64,000 nucleotides of DNA from a virus. Below, piece by piece: positions 56,955 to 63,859 of this stretch; the first letter of the stretch is position 1; every line of letters starts with the position of its first letter. The DNA lies in IMG/VR virus record IMGVR_UViG_3300034073_005389, positions 297,491 through 361,490 of that record; one strand, 5' to 3'. The notes beneath the pieces are model-generated. The model saw only the letters and a program-made list of their open reading frames with translations. It had not been told where the DNA came from and ran no database searches. Both the position numbers and the translations under genes were made by a program.

Positions 56955-57035
56955 AAGAACCCAGGATTGCTGTTGCAATCCTGGGTTCTTATCTGCTCAC
57001 CCACCGGAATCCGTTAGGACTCAACAGTGGGTGAG
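56955..57035 (-). terminator. Double terminator of the MYG1-like gene
   Basis: Two hairpins: CTCACCCAC/GTGGGTGAG (56996-57035, with a GAGTCC/GGATTC inner stem), then AAGAACCCAGGATTGC/GCAATCCTGGGTTCTT (56955-56990), then GTTTCAA on the minus strand. Confidence 0.85.
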
Positions 57036-57039
57036 TGTG

Positions 57040-57900
57040 TCAACCGAGCGCCAGCTTCGCCAGGGCGATTGCGCCCTCCCGACTGCGGGCGCCGCCGATG
57101 AACCGTGCGTTGTGGCAGAATACGGAATCATGAACTCCAGTCACTGCCGCCAGCTGTTCGTTTCGTAGCCCCGCCCATGCCTCGGGGAGCGGTCGGCGTT
57201 GCCCGAAGCTCCCCATGCTGGGCGGAACGCACTGGACCAGCCAGTCGTCCGCTTGGGGGAACACGAGGAAGAGCGCGTGGGTGCTCTCCTCCACCACCGT
57301 CTGCATGACCGGCATGAACCGGTCCAGAACGATGATCTTCCCCTCGATTGCGTTGGAGATGGCGTGGCGAGCGCCCTCCAACGCGAGCATCCGACCCTGC
57401 GCAGAGGCGATCACCCTGCGCAGGTGTGCCTCTGCAAACTCGACGGCGCGGGCGAATGCGTCGTCGAAGTTTTGCGCCTCGTGCCAGCAGGGGTTGAACC
57501 CGCTGACCACATCAGAGAAGGTGTGGTGATCCACACCTTCAGTAATGCTGCGGGTGCCGTACCCGCAGTCGAGGGCGTCAACCGCCCAGATGAGGTCGCT
57601 TTCGACCTCCCCCTCCACGCCGGGGGCGATGGAAGCACCAAAGTGCTTCCACACGAGACCGGCGCTGCTGTAGGGCACCCCATTGGGGCGCACGCCAGCG
57701 CCCCCCTTCTGGTGGTGGTCGAATCGTAGCGTGGTGGGGTCATAGACCCCTCCCACGTCCACAACAACCATCCCCATCTCGATCACCTTGGGATCGCGGG
57801 TCCGGATAACCGGACCCTCGAACCCCGCCATGCGCAAAATAGCGCAGGCGAGAACGTCGTCGGCGTGGAAGGGACCATTGTGAGTGACAATACTGCTCAT
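57040..57900 (-). CDS. MYG1/UPF0160-family metal-dependent hydrolase
   Basis: VTHNGPFHADDVLACAILR carries the N-terminal His/Asp metal site. VVDVGGVYDP then RFDHHQKG (DHH at 61-63) complete the DHH-like catalytic core, and PCWHEAQNFDDAFARAVEFA and VTGVHDSVFCHNARFIGGAR match the MYG1 C-terminal half. 286 residues is close to normal length. Known MYG1 proteins act as RNA 3'-5' exonucleases. High GC, its own cassette, so a recent host acquisition is likely (inference). Confidence 0.85.
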   Translation of the reverse strand: MSSIVTHNGPFHADDVLACAILRMAGFEGPVIRTRDPKVIEMGMVVVDVGGVYDPTTLRFDHHQKGGAGVRPNGVPYSSAGLVWKHFGASIAPGVEGEVESDLIWAVDALDCGYGTRSITEGVDHHTFSDVVSGFNPCWHEAQNFDDAFARAVEFAEAHLRRVIASAQGRMLALEGARHAISNAIEGKIIVLDRFMPVMQTVVEESTHALFLVFPQADDWLVQCVPPSMGSFGQRRPLPEAWAGLRNEQLAAVTGVHDSVFCHNARFIGGARSREGAIALAKLALG

Positions 57901-57941
57901 GTGAGCCTCCTAGAAAGCCGTGTGTGAAGTTGTACGGCTCA

Positions 57942-57969
57942 CATACAGTTGTGCAAGTTGACCGATGGG
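57942..57969 (-). promoter_or_regulatory. Class A promoter for the MYG1-like cassette
   Basis: Exact box, -10 TGTATG then TGAGCCG. 5' stem AGCCGT...ACGGCT. Confidence 0.85.
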
Positions 57970-57987
57970 TACAAGCCATGTAGAAAA

Positions 57988-58027
57988 TCGGTGAGTCAGA
58001 ATCTCGAAAGACTCAATGACTCACCGA
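57988..58027 (-). terminator. Terminator of the 58033 cassette
   Basis: TCGGTGAGTC/GACTCACCGA with an inner GAGTCTTTCGAGATTC hairpin, then TTTTCTAC. Confidence 0.9.
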
Positions 58028-58032
58028 GTGTG

Positions 58033-58506
58033 TCAACCGTAGAGCGTTCGGAGGGTCGCGCAAACGCGCGTCGCCTCCGATTGTTGGAACCGCTCCACTT
58101 TCTGGAGCAGTTCGATTGACTCTTCCCGGTCCATGCCGGGAAGCTGACGGAGTGCCAGCAACAGCAGTTTGCTGCTGGCGGTGGGTGCGCCGTCGAAGCG
58201 CACCACCTCACCGTTGAGGGTGAGGGAGAAGGGCTCATCGCCCTCCTCGCCCTCGCCCTCGCCCTCATTGCCGAGTGCCTCACCGAGTGACCATGCGGTC
58301 ACTCGGTGGGAGGAGGTGCCTGAGTGCCCGTCAAGGCGCACCGACACCCCCTCCTCGTGGGTGAGGGTAAGAACTGCGGGGAGGAGTAACGTACTCCTCC
58401 CGATGTGGTGCCTGAACGAGCCGAGGACAATCGCCCCCAGCTCGTTCAGCACCACCTGGCGGGGTTCAAACCCCGCCATGGCTGCGAAACCAGTTGCAAT
58501 AATCAT
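58033..58506 (-). CDS. Hypothetical cassette protein with acidic repeat, 157 aa
   Basis: The ATG at 58506 (MIIATGFAAMAGFEPRQV), GGAGG upstream. Beta-rich first part, an acidic run GEGEGEEGDE from a short DNA repeat, then a helical end (ESIELLQKVERFQQSEA). Not recognised. Leader element 58521-58584. Confidence 0.8.
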   Translation of the reverse strand: MIIATGFAAMAGFEPRQVVLNELGAIVLGSFRHHIGRSTLLLPAVLTLTHEEGVSVRLDGHSGTSSHRVTAWSLGEALGNEGEGEGEEGDEPFSLTLNGEVVRFDGAPTASSKLLLLALRQLPGMDREESIELLQKVERFQQSEATRVCATLRTLYG

Positions 58507-58520
58507 TGCAACCTCCTTGC

Positions 58521-58584
58521 AGAGTCTATCCACTACCCGTAATAGATCAGCATGACCTGTCATCAGGTAACAGCTTCGACTCTC
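58521..58584 (-). promoter_or_regulatory. Structured leader element, copy a
   Basis: AGAGTC/GACTCT outer stem, TTACC/GGTAG middle stem, AGGTCA-TGC-TGATCT inner hairpin with a G-U pair, then GGAGG. Between promoter 58586 and the 58033 gene. Confidence 0.75.
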
Positions 58585-58585
58585 A

Positions 58586-58613
58586 CATACAGTTGTGCAA
58601 GTTGACCGATGGG
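58586..58613 (-). promoter_or_regulatory. Class A promoter for the 58033 cassette
   Basis: Exact box, -10 TGTATG then TGAGAG. Confidence 0.85.
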
Positions 58614-58627
58614 TACAAGCCATGTAG

Positions 58628-58671
58628 AATCAGTGAGCCGGAATCCCGAAGGACTCAACAGCTCACTGATT
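58628..58671 (-). terminator. Terminator of the 58681 cassette
   Basis: AATCAGTGAGC/GCTCACTGATT enclosing GAGTCC-TTCG-GGATTC. Short T tract. Confidence 0.9.
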
Positions 58672-58680
58672 CCGGGACAC

Positions 58681-58911
58681 CTACAGATCGTAGACGCCCC
58701 GTTGTCCCACGATTGACCAAGAGGAGTACTCCTCTTGGTCAATCATGGTTGTGTGTCCGACGATGAGGTTTTCAAACCTCTCGTCGGTCACCAGTTTGTA
58801 GGCGTCGCCACGTAGCAACGCCTTTGCCGCCCGCATGGCGAGCGGCAGAGGGAGACCCGTCTTTCGACGGATCTCCCTCCCCAAAACCACACGTCTTCGT
58901 TTCAGTGTCAT
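58681..58911 (-). CDS. Small basic cassette protein, 76 aa
   Basis: The ATG at 58911 (MTLKRRRVVLGREIRRKT), GGAGG upstream. Strongly basic N-terminal third, then AMRAAKALLRGDAYKLVTDE. Likely nucleic-acid binding. Not recognised. Confidence 0.8.
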   Translation of the reverse strand: MTLKRRRVVLGREIRRKTGLPLPLAMRAAKALLRGDAYKLVTDERFENLIVGHTTMIDQEEYSSWSIVGQRGVYDL

Positions 58912-58923
58912 TTGACACCTCCA

Positions 58924-58951
58924 CTTACTTGTTTGCAAGTTGACCGATGGG
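58924..58951 (-). promoter_or_regulatory. Class A promoter for the 58681 cassette
   Basis: Exact box, -10 AGTAAG then TGGAGG; the Shine-Dalgarno follows at once, so a very short leader. Confidence 0.8.
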
Positions 58952-58966
58952 TGCGTGCCAGTTAGA

Positions 58967-59055
58967 TTGACCAGCCGGAATCCCGAAGGACTCAACAGCT
59001 GGTCAATACTACCCCCTCACTGAAGCTCAACCCTCTCAGGGAACTTCAGTGAGGG
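58967..59055 (-). terminator. Double terminator of the 59060 cassette
   Basis: CCCTCACTGAAG/CTTCAGTGAGGG (59014-59055), then TTGACCAGC/GCTGGTCAA with the GAGTCC-TTCG-GGATTC core (58967-59006). Confidence 0.85.
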
Positions 59056-59059
59056 ACCT

Positions 59060-59407
59060 TCACACCTCACACCAGGGAATAGTCTCCCTGGTGAAATCCT
59101 CCTCCACCTCATGCCAGCCGAACTGGTCGGCATGAGGTGAAACCCTCCCCACGTAGCGGACCAAACGAAATGGTCCGCTGTGGGGGTAGTCCGTATCGTA
59201 CGCGGCGGACTCTTCGTCCACCTCGTACGCCACCACCCACGCCATTCCGGCGTGGAAGCCACGCGCCCACGGGGGCGCGTCGTCGCCCCGAAGAGCCCAG
59301 AGCCCTTCGGGGTGGGTATAGAGGAGGTCACGGACCTCCTCCATGGTGGGGATGGGGAGGTCCGTCTCCGGAACCTCCCCATCCCAATCAGGAAACATCA
59401 CCCTCAT
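59060..59407 (-). CDS. Acidic cassette protein, 115 aa
   Basis: The ATG at 59407 (MRVMFPDWDGEVPETDLP), AGGAGG upstream. Acidic, Trp-rich: WALRGDDAPPWARGFHAGMA, ends EVEEDFTRETIPWCEV. Not recognised. Confidence 0.8.
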   Translation of the reverse strand: MRVMFPDWDGEVPETDLPIPTMEEVRDLLYTHPEGLWALRGDDAPPWARGFHAGMAWVVAYEVDEESAAYDTDYPHSGPFRLVRYVGRVSPHADQFGWHEVEEDFTRETIPWCEV

Positions 59408-59421
59408 GGTGACCTCCTTGT

Positions 59422-59485
59422 AGAGTCTATCCACTACCCGCAACAGATCACCACGATCTATTATCAGGCAGTAGCTTCGACCCTC
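59422..59485 (-). promoter_or_regulatory. Structured leader element, copy b
   Basis: GGGTC/GACTC(T) outer stem, CTGCC/GGTAG middle stem (one G-U), AGATCG-TGG-TGATCT inner hairpin. Followed by AGGAGG of the 59060 gene. Confidence 0.75.
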
Positions 59486-59486
59486 A

Positions 59487-59514
59487 CATACAGTTATGCA
59501 AGTTGACCGATGGG
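59487..59514 (-). promoter_or_regulatory. Class A promoter for the 59060 cassette
   Basis: Exact box, -10 TGTATG then TGAGGG. Confidence 0.85.
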
Positions 59515-59528
59515 TGCACGCCAGTTAG

Positions 59529-59570
59529 ATTGACCAGCCGGAATCCCGAAGGACTCAACAGCTGGTCAAT
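59529..59570 (-). terminator. Terminator of the 59576 cassette
   Basis: ATTGACCAGC/GCTGGTCAAT with the TTCG-capped core; nearly identical to the one at 58967-59006. Confidence 0.9.
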
Positions 59571-59575
59571 CTCAC

Positions 59576-59797
59576 TCACTGCGGGAGGAAGCTCCGAAGA
59601 GCCTCCATCGCCACAGCGAGGGTTGCGCCCCCGCCCGTGCGGTCCCACGCCCCTCGGGCGTGGTTCTCCGCTGCTGGCACGTAGGTGACGTGCCAGCAGC
59701 GCCCGCAGGCGCACCCATCCGGGGAAGGTGGCGTGATCTCCACCTTCCCCGGACCCCAGGCGGCACAAGCCGCCTGTACCAGAGATTCGAAGTCCAT
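59576..59797 (-). CDS. Hypothetical cassette protein, 73 aa
   Basis: The ATG at 59797 (MDFESLVQAACAAWGPGK), GAGGAGG upstream. Central CACGRCWHVTYVPA has Cys/His that may bind metal; helical end (ATLAVAMEALRSFLPQ). Not recognised. Confidence 0.8.
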   Translation of the reverse strand: MDFESLVQAACAAWGPGKVEITPPSPDGCACGRCWHVTYVPAAENHARGAWDRTGGGATLAVAMEALRSFLPQ

Positions 59798-59810
59798 GTG
59801 GACCTCCTCA

Positions 59811-59875
59811 GAGAGCGTATCCACTACCCGCAATAGATCACCACGATCTATCATCAGATAGAGGTTTCCACCCTC
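59811..59875 (-). promoter_or_regulatory. Structured leader element, copy c
   Basis: GAGGGTG/CGCTCTC outer stem with G-U pairs, CTATC/GGTAG middle, ATAGATCG-TGG-TGATCTAT inner. Ahead of the 59576 gene. Confidence 0.75.
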
Positions 59876-59876
59876 A

Positions 59877-59904
59877 CATGCAGTTATGCAGGTTGACCGA
59901 TGGG
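59877..59904 (-). promoter_or_regulatory. Class A promoter for the 59576 cassette
   Basis: Exact box, -10 TGCATG then TGAGGG. Confidence 0.8.
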
Positions 59905-59921
59905 TGCGAGCAGTGTAGAAA

Positions 59922-59965
59922 CTCGGCAAGCCGGAATCCCTTACGGGACTCAACAGCTTGCCGAG
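59922..59965 (-). terminator. Terminator of the 59973 cassette
   Basis: CTCGGCAAGC/GCTTGCCGAG with a longer GAGTCCCGTAAGGGATTC core, then TTTCTACAC. Confidence 0.9.
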
Positions 59966-59972
59966 GGGGGAG

Positions 59973-60185
59973 TCAATGAAGCTTGAAAAGCTTCATTGCC
60001 TCCCCCGCTGTCATTTTTTGCGGGAAGTCGTATTCATATACGACCCCCGCTACGTCGTACGTGAGTCCGAGGTACACAAGTACCTCGGACTCTGGGGGGA
60101 GGACTGCCAGCCTCTGGCAGTCCTCCCCGTGCAAATATGGATAGCCCCATAAATCGGGGCTCATCCACTCGTAGAATTCCTCCAT
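59973..60185 (-). CDS. MEEFYE-family cassette protein, 70 aa
   Basis: The ATG at 60185 (MEEFYEWMSPDLWGYPYL), AAGGAG upstream. Shares LxxLPxxSEVxVYxGxxYxxxGxVY and MTAxEAxKxF with 61286-61489. Small alpha/beta fold. Paralogous cassettes, function unknown. Confidence 0.85.
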   Translation of the reverse strand: MEEFYEWMSPDLWGYPYLHGEDCQRLAVLPPESEVLVYLGLTYDVAGVVYEYDFPQKMTAGEAMKLFKLH

Positions 60186-60198
60186 GGAATTCTCCTTA

Positions 60199-60263
60199 GA
60201 GAGCGTATCCACTACCCGCAATAGATCACCATAATCCATTATCAGGTAACAGCTTCAACTCTC
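60199..60263 (-). promoter_or_regulatory. Structured leader element, copy d
   Basis: GAGAGT/GCTCTC outer stem, TTACC/GGTAG middle, ATGGATTA-TGG-TGATCTAT inner with G-U pairs. Ahead of the 59973 gene. Confidence 0.75.
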
Positions 60264-60264
60264 A

Positions 60265-60292
60265 CATACAGTTACGCAGGTTGACCGATGGG
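60265..60292 (-). promoter_or_regulatory. Class A promoter for the 59973 cassette
   Basis: Exact box, -10 TGTATG then TGAGAG. Confidence 0.85.
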
Positions 60293-60354
60293 TGCAAGCC
60301 ATGTATATTAACAAAAAAATTGAAATACTCATATACTCTTGTGTGAAAAGAAAT
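60293..60354 (-). other. Short promoter unit without a supported gene
   Basis: Between boxes 60280-60292 and 60370-60382 there is only about 60 nt ending ATTTTTTTGTTAATATAC. A 25-codon frame (MSISIFLLIYMAC...) runs into the next promoter box and has no ribosome site. May be a deleted cassette or a tiny RNA. Confidence 0.5.
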
Positions 60355-60382
60355 AAGTAACTTATACAAGTTGACCGATGGG
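60355..60382 (-). promoter_or_regulatory. Class A box upstream of an empty unit
   Basis: Exact box; -10 TTACTT is weak (TATAAG occurs three bases into the spacer). Confidence 0.55.
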
Positions 60383-60400
60383 TGCAAGCCGTGTAGAGTA

Positions 60401-60436
60401 ACGAGCCGGAATCCTTTGCAGGACTCAACGACTCGT
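60401..60436 (-). terminator. Terminator of the 60448 cassette
   Basis: ACGAG(TC)/(C)CTCGT outer stem with GAGTCCTGCAAAGGATTC core. Confidence 0.85.
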
Positions 60437-60447
60437 CACTCGCATTG

Positions 60448-61110
60448 TTACTTGCGATTTTTCTTGCCACCAAAGTGGCTCAGAAAACTCGCAATCGCAC
60501 CCGCCGATGCGGGCTCACCTCGCACCGGAGGCGGAGGGGGAGGAGGAGGGGGAGGAGGAGGAGGGGGAGGGTATTCTGAATAATACCTCTCCTTATAATA
60601 CTCCTCCTTCAATCCCCCTGCACTCATGACAAAGCGCGAATACGCGATTTTGTCATGAAAGTTCTCCCAAGAGACCGACCAATCAGCCTCAATTGGGAGA
60701 ACCAGCCACTCTTTGCTGCGGTTTCCATACCGGGACGTGCTCAAATCCCGGTGAAGTTTACACCCCCGGAACACCGGGTCCCCCAGGGTGTAGCGTTTCC
60801 CCCCTTGGGGGATTGCCCTGACCGTGACGCATTGCGCCACGATCAGATCGTCGGCAGCCTTTTCAGCTGCCTTGCGTGCGGCTTCTTCAGCCGCTTTGGC
60901 TGCTTGCGCAGCCTCCCGCGCAGCTGCCTGCGCCGCCCGCTCCGCCCGCTCCTCCGCCAGACGAGCCTCTACCTGGGCGGCAAATGCCGGGTCCAGGTAG
61001 CTCCTTCCCGCCGCCCCGATAGGCGGCGGAGCCGCTTGCCCCCACGGATCGTAGGAGCCGCGCTGCGTGCCGGGCTCCTCCCCGTTGAGATAACGGTTCC
61101 AGTCACCCAT
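60448..61110 (-). CDS. Ala-rich coiled coil protein with polyproline tract, 220 aa
   Basis: GGAGGTCACCT precedes ATG at 61110. Parts in order: Gly/Pro-rich head; Ala/Glu/Arg coiled coil of about 50 residues (EARLAEERAERAAQAA); a beta domain (KRYTLGDPVFRGCKLHRDL); then 15 consecutive prolines and a basic tail (FGGKKNRK). The proline run would need EF-P. Architecture recalls TolA- or TonB-like spacers or virion proteins, but there is no membrane anchor. Not recognised. Confidence 0.85.
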   Translation of the reverse strand: MGDWNRYLNGEEPGTQRGSYDPWGQAAPPPIGAAGRSYLDPAFAAQVEARLAEERAERAAQAAAREAAQAAKAAEEAARKAAEKAADDLIVAQCVTVRAIPQGGKRYTLGDPVFRGCKLHRDLSTSRYGNRSKEWLVLPIEADWSVSWENFHDKIAYSRFVMSAGGLKEEYYKERYYSEYPPPPPPPPPPPPPPPVRGEPASAGAIASFLSHFGGKKNRK

Positions 61111-61125
61111 AGGTGACCTCCTTGT

Positions 61126-61189
61126 AGAGTCTATCCACTACCCGCAATAGATCACCATGATCTATTATCAGGTAGAGGCTTCCACTCTC
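61126..61189 (-). promoter_or_regulatory. Structured leader element, copy e
   Basis: AGAGT/ACTCT outer, CTACC/GGTAG middle, ATAGATCA-TGG-TGATCTAT inner, all Watson-Crick. Ahead of the 60448 gene. Confidence 0.8.
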
Positions 61190-61190
61190 A

Positions 61191-61218
61191 CATGCAGTTA
61201 TGCAGGTTGACCGATGGG
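61191..61218 (-). promoter_or_regulatory. Class A promoter for the 60448 cassette
   Basis: Exact box, -10 TGCATG then TGAGAG. Confidence 0.8.
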
Positions 61219-61235
61219 TGCGAGCAGTGTAGAAA

Positions 61236-61279
61236 CTCGACAAGCCGGAATCCCTTGCGAGACTCAACGGCTTGCCGAG
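61236..61279 (-). terminator. Terminator of the 61286 cassette
   Basis: CTCG(A)CAAGC/GCTTG(C)CGAG with GAGTCTCGCAAGGGATTC core, then TTTCTACAC. Confidence 0.85.
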
Positions 61280-61285
61280 CGACGG

Positions 61286-61489
61286 TCAGAGGAAGGCTTT
61301 TTGAGCCTCCTCTGCCGTCATTACTTCCGGGGCGCCGTGTTGGTACACGTACCCCGACATTTCGTATTCAATTCCGAAGTACACGCGTACTTCGGAATCG
61401 ATCGGGAGGGCGCGGAGGCGGACTTTATCCGCCTCCGCGAGCCAGGCGCGACCTACGTCGCCCCCCCCGCACTCGTAGAATTCCTGCAT
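61286..61489 (-). CDS. MEEFYE-family cassette protein, 67 aa
   Basis: The ATG at 61489 (MQEFYECGGGDVGRAWLA), AAGGAG upstream. Paralogue of 59973-60185 through SEVRVYFGIEYEMSGYVY and MTAEEAQKAFL. Even the leader, Shine-Dalgarno and start context (GAATTCCATG) are shared, so the whole cassette was duplicated. Confidence 0.85.
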   Translation of the reverse strand: MQEFYECGGGDVGRAWLAEADKVRLRALPIDSEVRVYFGIEYEMSGYVYQHGAPEVMTAEEAQKAFL

Positions 61490-61502
61490 GGAATTCTCCT
61501 TA

Positions 61503-61567
61503 GAGAGCGTATCCACTACCCGTAACAGATCACCACGATCTATTATCAGATAGGGGCTTCCACTCTC
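61503..61567 (-). promoter_or_regulatory. Structured leader element, copy f
   Basis: GAGAGTG/CGCTCTC outer, CTATC/GGTAG middle, ATAGATCG-TGG-TGATCTGT inner. Ahead of the 61286 gene. Confidence 0.75.
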
Positions 61568-61568
61568 A

Positions 61569-61596
61569 CATATAGTTGTGCAGGTTGACCGATGGG
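61569..61596 (-). promoter_or_regulatory. Class A promoter for the 61286 cassette
   Basis: Exact box, -10 TATATG then TGAGAG. Confidence 0.85.
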
Positions 61597-61628
61597 TGCA
61601 GACCATGTATATTAACAAAAAAATTGAA

Positions 61629-61657
61629 GCAATCAACCGCTACTCGGTATTACTTGC
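61629..61657 (-). terminator. Terminator of the short 61.63-61.72 kb unit
   Basis: GCAAGTAATACCG/CGGTTGATTGC with internal mismatches, then TTCAATTTTTTTG on the minus strand. Confidence 0.7.
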
Positions 61658-61719
61658 GTGCCTTGTCGAGAAAATAATAAGTAAATAAATAAATACAAAA
61701 CAATAACTTGAATAGCCAT
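61633..61719 (-). CDS. Possible tiny membrane protein, 28 aa
   Basis: MAIQVIVLYLFIYLLFSRQG, one hydrophobic helix and a polar end. The ATG overlaps the -10 of the promoter at 61717-61744, so this start could not be on that transcript. May be a noncoding unit instead. Confidence 0.3.
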   Translation of the reverse strand: MAIQVIVLYLFIYLLFSRQGTQVIPSSG

Positions 61720-61744
61720 AGATTCAAATAAGTTGACCGATGGG
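61717..61744 (-). promoter_or_regulatory. Class A promoter of a very short unit
   Basis: Exact box, -10 TCTATG. Transcript would be only about 90 nt to the terminator at 61629-61657. Confidence 0.65.
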
Positions 61745-61764
61745 TGCAAACCACCAAAACTTGA

Positions 61765-61799
61765 ACCCCCGGACTCACCTATACAGATGAGCCGGGGGT
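61765..61799 (-). terminator. Terminator of the 61805 cassette
   Basis: ACCCCCGG(ACTCA)/...GAGCCGGGGGT stem, then TTCAAGTTTTGG on the minus strand. Confidence 0.85.
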
Positions 61800-61804
61800 C
61801 CATC

Positions 61805-62035
61805 TCAGTCGGCACCTCCTTTCTCGGTTGCGGTGGCGGCGGTGGCGTACCCGTGGAACCACGGGTCGCCACCACCGATGAGGTGGGCGTCGGAGGCTGC
61901 CCAGTCAGCCTCCGACATGTTGTTGAGGGCGCGGGGACCCCAGTAGGGTCCCGCCCCCGAACCAAAGGTAAAGGCGTCACCTGGGGACGCCTCTACCTCC
62001 CAGGTTTTACCCTGGAAAACAACGACGCACTTCAT
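61805..62035 (-). CDS. Hypothetical cassette protein, 76 aa
   Basis: MKCVVVFQGKTWEVEASPGD, then WGPRALNNMSEADWAASDAH. Acidic/aromatic, Ala-rich end. AAAGGGG before ATG. Not recognised. Confidence 0.85.
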   Translation of the reverse strand: MKCVVVFQGKTWEVEASPGDAFTFGSGAGPYWGPRALNNMSEADWAASDAHLIGGGDPWFHGYATAATATEKGGAD

Positions 62036-62080
62036 GTGCGCCCCTTTCTGAGAGCCTCGGCGGGATTGCCATAGCTCTCA

Positions 62081-62108
62081 CATACAGTTACGCAGGTTGA
62101 CCGATGGG
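62081..62108 (-). promoter_or_regulatory. Class A promoter for the 61805 cassette
   Basis: Exact box, -10 TGTATG then TGAGAG. Confidence 0.85.
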
Positions 62109-62130
62109 TGCGAACCATGCAAACAAAAAA

Positions 62131-62154
62131 GTGGATGGTCTTTCGACCATCCAC
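62131..62154 (-). terminator. Terminator behind the 62260 gene
   Basis: GTGGATGGTC/GACCATCCAC with TTTC loop, then TTTTTTG on the minus strand. About 105 nt of sequence rich in GACTC/GAGTC repeats lies between the gene stop and this hairpin. Confidence 0.9.
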
Positions 62155-62259
62155 TCATCTAGCTGCGGTCTCGCTCCAGATTGGTGGAGTCCCCGCTCAG
62201 GACTGCTAGAGTCCCCTCAGGTTACGCCTGAGGACGTTCCCTCGTCACCACCGAGAAGA

Positions 62260-62625
62260 TCAGACGATCTCTCGGAAAGCGACGAACCCGAATACGGCGG
62301 TCTTGGTGACCGAACCGTCAGGGTTCGTCACTTCGACGGAGCGTCGCTCCGTCGTGGTGACGACCACCCGTCGCCCCTTGGAGAGCAGGCTCCGGATGGT
62401 GGTGTAGACCAGGGAGGTTTCTCCCATGATCATCACCACGTCTCCGGGAGCGCATTGCTCCACCAAAGTGGCGGCGAGGGTGGCAACTTCCGCCATGGTG
62501 GCGGAAGCGGGGACGTTCGGGAACGCGATGTCCCTGATGTCCCCGCCGAGCGCCTTGGCGGCGCTCAGCTGGTCCTCGCCCCACTTCTGGGACGGGTGGT
62601 TAGAAATGTTCACAAACATTTCCAA
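62260..62625 (-). CDS. Conserved Rossmann-like small protein, 121 aa
   Basis: MFVNISNHPSQKWGEDQLSA (inner Met), DIRDIAFPNVPASATMAEVA, GDVVMIMGETSLVYTTIRSL, RRVVVTTTERRSVEV and FGFVAFREIV follow a bacterial family of uncharacterised proteins that I recall but cannot name. Alpha/beta nucleotide-fold pattern. Start could be MEMF or MF. Probably acquired from a bacterium. Confidence 0.75.
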   Translation of the reverse strand: MEMFVNISNHPSQKWGEDQLSAAKALGGDIRDIAFPNVPASATMAEVATLAATLVEQCAPGDVVMIMGETSLVYTTIRSLLSKGRRVVVTTTERRSVEVTNPDGSVTKTAVFGFVAFREIV

Positions 62626-62723
62626 CCTTCCTATCGGCTTGATCGGGCTCCTCTATCAAGCCCAGCCGATAACCCTACCACAAGCGATGAATCAACATGA
62701 CTCATCATCAAGCGGCAGGCTCA

Positions 62724-62751
62724 CTTATAGTTGTGCAGGTTGACCGATGGG
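62724..62751 (-). promoter_or_regulatory. Class A promoter for the 62260 gene
   Basis: Exact box, spacer CTGCACAAC, -10 TATAAG then TGAGCC. Confidence 0.9.
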
Positions 62752-62764
62752 TGCAGACCCCTGA

Positions 62765-62912
62765 AATAAAAAACCCCCCGGTCACTCCTGCCCACTATCA
62801 CCCGGTGCCTTTCAGCGTTGGTGAAGTGTTTTTATGGCAATAATTGGAGGGACCGGGGGGGATGCTAGGTCATAACAGCATCCTCCTATAACTGTCACTT
62901 CACTTAGTAACA
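62765..62912 (-). ncRNA. Noncoding unit 1 (structured, own promoter and terminator)
   Basis: Starts behind promoter 62919-62946. Contains a GGATGCT/AGCATCC hairpin. A perfect AGGAGG is followed by ATG ACC TAG, a two-codon frame. The 3' half is closed by CCCCCCGGTC(C)CTCC pairing with GGAGTGACCGGGGGG, then TTTTTTATTTC. No longer ORF. Confidence 0.65.
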
Positions 62913-62918
62913 GTTACA

Positions 62919-62946
62919 CTAATAGATAAGTATGTTGACCGATGGG
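62919..62946 (-). promoter_or_regulatory. Class A promoter of noncoding unit 1
   Basis: Exact box, spacer ATACTTATC, -10 TATTAG then TGTAAC. Confidence 0.85.
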
Positions 62947-62961
62947 TGCGGACCCCTGAAA

Positions 62962-63089
62962 TAAAAAAACCCCGCCACGCTGCAAAGCGTGGCGGGGCAC
63001 AACAGGGCATAGAGATAACCCTTTCCGTAGCCTATAGTAGTAAGATAACTCCTTCCGGCAAAATGCTCCGAAGTTATCTTCGTACCTTA
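62962..63089 (-). ncRNA. Noncoding unit 2
   Basis: Behind promoter 63096-63123. AGATAACT/GGAGTTATCT hairpin containing a GGAGC..GCC interior, then the terminator GCCCCGCCACGC/GCGTGGCGGGG and TTTTTTTATTTC. No ORF with a ribosome site. Confidence 0.65.
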
Positions 63090-63095
63090 GCTACA

Positions 63096-63123
63096 CTAAT
63101 AGATAAGTATGTTGACCGATGGG
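63096..63123 (-). promoter_or_regulatory. Class A promoter of noncoding unit 2
   Basis: Exact box, spacer ATACTTATC, -10 TATTAG then TGTAGC. Same spacer and -10 as unit 1. Confidence 0.85.
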
Positions 63124-63147
63124 TTAACTTGTTTGCATTTAACAAAT

Positions 63148-63462
63148 AAAAAAACCCTGACCAGCTTTCGCCAGTCAGGGTTTGTATGAACGGCGTAGGG
63201 ACTCTGCCTCCCTCTTTCACCCTCTAAGTCACGGGCTCCGTTCTACTTGGTCCTTTGAGCATCGCAATGGTGTGCGTGCTCGTTTTTCCTCCGCGCCGAC
63301 CCCAGGGTAGGACTCTTTGCCCCGTATCGGGTTTGCGTGTGCGCTTATCCCGCCCTGTCTATCCAGGTTTCAGGCGGTTCTTTCCCGGCGCGCACAATGG
63401 GTCCTATAAAGGACCGTCAGTAGGGGAACACATAAGTGTCCGAGATCCCCAGATGCAACTAG
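63148..63462 (-). ncRNA. Noncoding unit 3 (about 310 nt, highly structured)
   Basis: Behind promoter 63469-63496. Hairpins in order: GATGC/GCATC, GGGGA..GACAC/GTGT..TCCCC, GGTCC/GGACC, GTGCGC...GCGCAC enclosing CCGCC/GGCGG, then terminator CCCTGACTGG/CCAGTCAGGG and TTTTTTT. A 31-codon frame from an ATG at about 63462 has its ribosome site too close and no homology I know. Confidence 0.65.
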
Positions 63463-63468
63463 CATCCT

Positions 63469-63496
63469 ACTATAACTCAGTATGTTGACCGATGGG
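63469..63496 (-). promoter_or_regulatory. Class A promoter of noncoding unit 3
   Basis: Exact box, -10 TATAGT then AGGATGC. Confidence 0.85.
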
Positions 63497-63512
63497 TACA
63501 AACCATGTAGAA

Positions 63513-63610
63513 TCTCGACAAGCCAGAATCCCTTGCGGAACTCAACAGCTTGTCGAGTCTCTCTCCCCACCTCTACCAGAATCCGTTAGGACTCGATGAT
63601 AGAGGTGGGG
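63513..63610 (-). terminator. Double terminator of the 63617 cassette
   Basis: CCCCACCTCTA/TAGAGGTGGGG with GAGTCC/GGATTC core (63565-63610), then CTCGACAAGC/GCTTGTCGAG (63513-63557), then ATTCTAC. Confidence 0.9.
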
Positions 63611-63616
63611 AGGTGT

Positions 63617-63859
63617 TTACTTGCGGCGGCTAAGCTGGTGGGCTCGCGCCCAGCCAGCCGCCGACGCCGCCCATGCCGCCACCGCCGCCGTGAGGCAGGC
63701 GATGGCGAGCAGGGCGATTCTGGCGGGGGCGTTTTTCGCCCCCGCCGCCCTCGCCGCCCAGTGGGCGGCGAGGGCGCGCCAAAGCGCGCTCCTCTCCGCC
63801 GCCCAGGCGGCGCGCGCCGACCTGAGGTCGGCGCGGATTCGAAAGAGGGACTTTTCCAT
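63617..63859 (-). CDS. Small Ala/Arg-rich membrane protein, 80 aa
   Basis: AAGGGACC before ATG at 63859. MEKSLFRIRADLRSARAAWA, a basic amphipathic helix, then one hydrophobic helix (RIALLAIACLTAAVAAWAA) and a basic tail. Extreme GC content. Topology is compatible with a holin or pinholin-type protein, but there is no direct evidence. Confidence 0.75.
   Translation of the reverse strand: MEKSLFRIRADLRSARAAWAAERSALWRALAAHWAARAAGAKNAPARIALLAIACLTAAVAAWAASAAGWARAHQLSRRK

Follow-up and report, generated by a model that had tools for sequence, protein, structure and literature searches.

Repeated leader hairpins and hairpin-packed genes at one end of a jumbo myophage genome

Introduction

Stem-loops at the 5' terminus stabilise E. 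coli mRNAs according to the studies listed in PMC3997798 (Emory 1992; Bouvet & Belasco 1992), and the stabilising stem-loops of ompA and papA from the Belasco laboratory, listed in the same source, lie at the 5' end directly upstream of the Shine-Dalgarno (SD) sequence. RNA viruses can show genome-scale ordered RNA structure (GORS), which is coding-sequence-wide structure beyond randomised controls (PMC3950689). In phage T4, hairpins hold or adjoin the SD or AUG in the initiation regions of e, soc, 49 and I-TevI, and the gp43 operator is a further case (PMC3014915). The start regions of double-stranded DNA (dsDNA) phages tend to have less structure than expected (PMC3072339). Here we describe a hairpin leader shared by six minus-strand genes, set in a gene block packed with further hairpins, in the final 64 kb of the 361,490-bp virus record IMGVR_UViG_3300034073_005389 (record positions 297,491 to 361,490; this whole stretch of 64,000 nucleotides is called the window, and coordinates count from its first letter).

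The leader would share with ompA and papA a hairpin at the presumed 5' end directly upstream of the SD, but here the hairpin is repeated before unrelated phage genes and further hairpins follow down the full length of the mRNA, and stabilisation is putative. Taken by itself, the leader is a modest result. More surprising, and larger as a finding, are the hairpin-packed mRNAs of this early-type region; a limited literature search returned no description of such mRNAs for dsDNA phages. The source record is that of a jumbo myophage, since its genes include those for DNA polymerase III alpha, a tail sheath, a baseplate J protein and other structural proteins. No annotated phage record had a DNA match to 56.5-64 kb. 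The beta domain of a multi-subunit phage RNA polymerase was looked for and was not found.

Results

A first-pass annotation of the window had proposed that six genes share a 5' leader with nested stems, and both points were borne out. The six copies are all on the minus strand, and the 361,490-bp record holds no further similar copy.

58518-58585, minus strand, leader hairpin of gene 58033
59419-59486, minus strand, leader hairpin of gene 59060
59809-59876, minus strand, leader hairpin of gene 59576
60197-60264, minus strand, leader hairpin of gene 59973
61123-61190, minus strand, leader hairpin of gene 60448
61501-61568, minus strand, leader hairpin of gene 61286

The same fold was obtained in all six: one interrupted hairpin of ~25 bp, consisting of an outer stem of 6-7 bp, an internal loop (GAAR/AUA), a stretch of 10 bp and, past a bulged A, a further 9 bp. 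Folding energies (dG) were -28 to -36 kcal/mol, with z-scores of -3.0 to -5.3 against dinucleotide shuffles, and in each copy the sense strand folds more strongly than the antisense. GCGGGTAGTGGATA had been described as a separate conserved strand, which it is not; GCGGGTAGTGG belongs to the middle stem as its 3' arm, with just the final AUA in the internal loop.

Base changes between copies had also been taken to keep pairing. One-sided changes do spare pairs: 96% of cells are paired, the changes are mostly one-sided wobbles, and the substitutions leave 6 broken cells vs. 11.1 expected on relocation (P = 0.009). Strict compensation, however, is absent among the six copies; the sole two-sided pair (columns 8-60) is broken in two of them, and the covariation score was no better than shuffled (325/500). 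A covariance model search recovered a seventh, divergent copy, absent from the first-pass annotation.

62675-62718, minus strand, leader of gene 62260, lacking the outer stem and limited to the middle and inner ones (26.2 bits, E = 8e-4 in 873 kb)

This copy aligns gap-free across model positions 13-56, and with seven copies six pairs show two-sided changes, a number equalled or exceeded in 5 of 500 shuffles. Its alignment was fitted to the model and is therefore biased towards structure, and in so hairpin-rich a region the copy could conceivably be a chance resemblance. The leader structure is computationally well supported; its function is proposed in the Discussion.

Rfam release 15 gave no match at the leaders, either at the gathering score or up to E = 1; the first-pass annotation had named no riboswitch with this sequence. 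The leader pattern had no match in genome_contigs, and the leader had none in the DNA-polymerase relatives, the covariance model search included. Two leader-gene proteins used as queries reached no further leader homologues. Two viral_contigs matches to the leader core pattern were set aside as chance, since they come without the remaining leader or the promoter box described below. In these searches the leader turned up in this genome only, and two-sided changes appear only when the seventh, local copy is added. Known from one genome, the leader lacks the mark of a riboswitch, a conserved aptamer found in diverse genomes with covariation.

Recent duplication of whole cassettes, the explanation set beforehand against the claim of selected structure, does not account for the copies. 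The six genes encode five unrelated proteins (the sole homologous pair is 59973/61286, at 46%), and identity is 84% for the leaders and 90% for the promoter boxes vs. 48% for the upstream DNA and 33% for the first 90 nt of the genes. A coding role for the leader was rejected as well: the frame YLIIDRGDLLRVVDTLSKE is open in five of the six copies and has a stop in the sixth, and its codon differences are 22 synonymous vs. 100 nonsynonymous.

Folding of the coding sequences was expressed as the z-score of local folding against synonymous-codon shuffles in which protein and codon usage are unchanged. In the block at 57-63.9 kb (57040-63859, minus strand) every one of the 11 tested genes gave z from -4.0 to -9.7 (median -6.5), with a mean folding excess of -7.6 kcal/mol per 60 nt. 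The excess weakens inward, to a median z of -2.8 at 48-57 kb, -1.4 further in and about -1.5 in 60 genes of the remaining genome; in the early-type regions of relatives the medians ran from -0.6 to -1.9. GC content does not explain the excess, because phages Celia (69% GC), lambda and MTATph1 gave only -1.2, -0.9 and -1.0, respectively. The MYG1-family gene scored -7.4 vs. -3.0 for a 43%-identical homologue of equal GC on another viral contig. Hairpins of at least 8 bp number 85 in 6,976 nt vs. 24-30 in shuffled sequence. As in GORS, folding beyond randomised controls runs along the coding sequence (11 of 11 genes), but whole-genome spread was not found: the excess is limited to the last ~7-16 kb, at one genome end, and takes the form of short discrete hairpins in the mRNAs of a dsDNA phage. 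The six leader genes and three coding hairpins are as follows.

58033-58506, minus strand, leader gene 58033 (157 aa, without family match; coding folding z -9.7)
59060-59407, minus strand, leader gene 59060 (115 aa, without family match; z -8.0)
59576-59797, minus strand, leader gene 59576 (73 aa, without clear family; z -5.0)
59973-60185, minus strand, leader gene 59973 (70 aa, paralogue of 61286; z -8.2)
60448-61110, minus strand, leader gene 60448 (220 aa; z -6.7)
61286-61489, minus strand, leader gene 61286 (67 aa, paralogue of 59973; z -4.2)
58711-58744, minus strand, 15-bp hairpin in gene 58681
60063-60092, minus strand, 13-bp hairpin in gene 59973 (paralogue 61286 retains it at 61371-61398, the two arms having changed in step)
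60096-60128, minus strand, 15-bp hairpin in gene 59973

The MYG1-type gene (PF03690; 57040-57900, minus strand) encodes a predicted exonuclease and lies in an early-type region of a phage.

The leader had been proposed to control access to the SD next to it. It does adjoin the SD, but the SD lies outside the leader. In most copies the SD is unpaired, or nearly so, within a short linker that separates the leader stem from a distinct start-codon hairpin; that of 59576 is partly paired. Inspection of the leaders by eye showed neither a conserved anti-SD nor an alternative fold. In 8 of the 11 neighbouring genes a 6-9 bp hairpin has the AUG in or at its loop, compared with 9% of other genes in the same genome, 2% in GC-rich relatives and 10.5% with shuffled flanks. 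The T4 cases likewise place the SD or AUG in or next to hairpins, but they concern single genes with known repression, whereas here a run of neighbours has the AUG in the loop and the SD mostly outside. Such AUG-in-loop hairpins run counter to the dsDNA-virus rule of reduced start structure (PMC3072339). Loops are given in brackets.

58492-58513, minus strand, start-codon hairpin of gene 58033, GGTTGCAAT(GATT)ATTGCAACT
59397-59413, minus strand, start-codon hairpin of gene 59060, GTCACC(ATGAG)GGTGAT
59789-59806, minus strand, start-codon hairpin of gene 59576, GAGGTCC(ACAT)GGACTTC
60173-60193, minus strand, start-codon hairpin of gene 59973, AGAATTCC(ATGGA)GGAATTCT
61101-61118, minus strand, start-codon hairpin of gene 60448, GGTCACC(TATG)GGTGACT
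61477-61497, minus strand, start-codon hairpin of gene 61286, AGAATTCC(ATGCA)GGAATTCT

Near gene ends in the last 7 kb, a second element occurs in ten copies and has the form variable stem, UU bulge, GAGUCC, tetraloop, GGAUUC, stem'. The loops are UUCG, GNRA or UAAC, and the outer stems covary strongly: two-sided changes were found in 13 of 19 pairs, a level reached in 0 of 500 shuffles. This is the best-supported covarying RNA of the region. Its core had no match in viral_contigs.

59526-59571, minus strand, 3' UU-bulged tetraloop hairpin
56992-57037, 57984-58029, 58626-58671, 58963-59008 and 59919-59966, minus strand, further copies
60394-60441, 61233-61280, 63511-63558 and 63563-63609, minus strand, further copies

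Upstream of the leaders stands a promoter-like box.

61584-61597, minus strand, 14-nt promoter-like box ACCCATCGGTCAAC before gene 61286

The same box stands before the other five leader genes and, within the last ~14 kb, before most genes. Within 3 mismatches, 53 sites were counted in the window vs. 3.1 expected, nearly all on the minus strand and before genes; the box is confined to the last ~60 kb of the record, and the strict pattern had no match in viral_contigs. Downstream of the box, many genes have 5' hairpins, unrelated to one another in sequence, that open 1-3 nt past the start of a conserved TGAG. At this same position, other genes at 50-64 kb have UGAGCC..GGCUC, UGUCUACUC..GAGUAGAUG or UGAACCA..UGGUUCA. 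A terminal stem of at least 6 bp follows 74% of the boxes vs. 48% at control offsets. From the pattern of box, TGAG and hairpin we infer a transcription start, and the position of the leader stem would fit the 5' end of such a transcript. Box and leader may form a 5' module before early-type genes.

On the plus strand, the sequence of several boxes between 57957 and 61597 is TTGACC-N17-TAGAAT or TATATT, resembling an opposite-facing sigma-70 promoter; the -10 part is not retained at boxes further left. At the end (L068) of a relative, G011, a 12-mer around TTTAGCTAATAA occurs ~40 times in the last 19 kb and is possibly that genome's own early promoter element. The interval 62770-63123 (minus strand) holds two tandem promoter-box units with strong hairpins, U-tract ends and no clear gene, and these are candidate small RNAs. 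A group I intron match (RF00028, 52 bits) lies at 630-824 of the window, minus strand.

Discussion

We propose, with a probability of roughly 45%, that early mRNAs of this phage are structured, or "armoured", with the leader as their 5'-terminal hairpin, and that the structure most likely serves to protect them from ribonucleases. The proposal builds on the computed fold, conservation, hairpin excess, start-codon loops and covarying 3' element; the transcription start, early timing, selection at the RNA level and protection are its predicted parts. Each mRNA would be a chain of leader hairpin, SD linker, start-codon hairpin, a hairpin every ~80 nt and the bulged 3' tetraloop hairpin. The 5' hairpin would block the entry of 5'-end-dependent ribonucleases, the 3' hairpin would block exonucleases, and the inner hairpins would block single-strand endonucleases of the host or of its defence, with the SD staying exposed in its linker. 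That a dsDNA jumbo phage evolved its early-region mRNAs into hairpin chains, with little beyond the SD exposed, against host ribonucleases or RNA-targeting defence is a possible but doubtful extension.

Several points weigh against this proposal. Start-codon structure normally lowers translation, so a purely protective role must bear a translation cost, and the start regions of dsDNA phages tend the other way. The hairpin excess was seen in one genome only. The excess of 5'-terminal stems over control offsets is modest, and of the ~50 boxes only seven have the leader. Where transcripts start and end, and when they are made, was read from sequence. Finally, the unpaired bases of the leader (GAA, AUA, the UGG loop and the bulged A) are nearly invariant and its 5' arm drifts.

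This last pattern would also suit the explanation that ranks next, an operator, which we regard as unlikely: the leader would be bound by a phage or host RNA-binding protein that co-regulates translation or stability, and the start-codon hairpins would be repressible sites. T4 RegA sites and the MS2 replicase operator are comparable arrangements. The placing of AUG in hairpin loops is also as expected of repressible sites, and T4 offers precedents such as gp43 (PMC3014915). However, the start-codon hairpins have no common sequence across most genes, genes without a leader show equally strong coding hairpins, and no candidate binding protein has been put forward.

A cause at the DNA level is slightly less likely again. 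Templated quasi-palindrome correction, or selected DNA structure, could yield perfect inverted repeats at this genome end, with the leaders as a recombining cassette boundary; many stems are indeed perfect, folding is strong on both strands, and leader and promoter box are common to unrelated genes. Against this, the sense RNA has more G-U than A-C in its interrupted stems (7:1 at the right end and 18:4 over the window), and in 10 of 11 genes the sense strand folds more strongly than the antisense by a margin greater than in shuffles (Stouffer z about -4, summed from per-gene values). The alternation of stable UUCG and GNRA tetraloops in the 3' element likewise points to the RNA level, and start codons are located in loops. 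We infer selection at the RNA level, and keep the DNA-level origin as a rival because the G-U and A-C counts are small.

A cis-acting modifier of RNA polymerase that passes terminators between cassettes, like the put RNAs of HK022, is improbable: the leader sits at the presumed transcript start and the hairpins ending leader genes have no clear U tract, but so few of the boxes carry a leader, and with a separate box for each gene there is no obvious need for read-through. The small-ligand riboswitch of the first-pass annotation is the least probable and without positive support. A structured leader with conserved unpaired bases does adjoin the SD, but it is a single unbranched hairpin without a junction pocket, shows no alternative fold or anti-SD by eye, leaves the SD outside, has no Rfam match or relatives, and precedes unrelated genes; ligand sensing or switching was not borne out.

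A gene block that opposes the start-region trend of dsDNA phages (PMC3072339), and whose folding exceeds that of synonymous controls by ~7.6 kcal/mol per 60 nt, suggests that phage mRNA is under a strong pressure that has gone unrecognised. If the armoured mRNAs proposed here are protective, they would represent an RNA-level route to survive the ribonucleases of the host, and would also be a model for stable mRNAs in bacteria.

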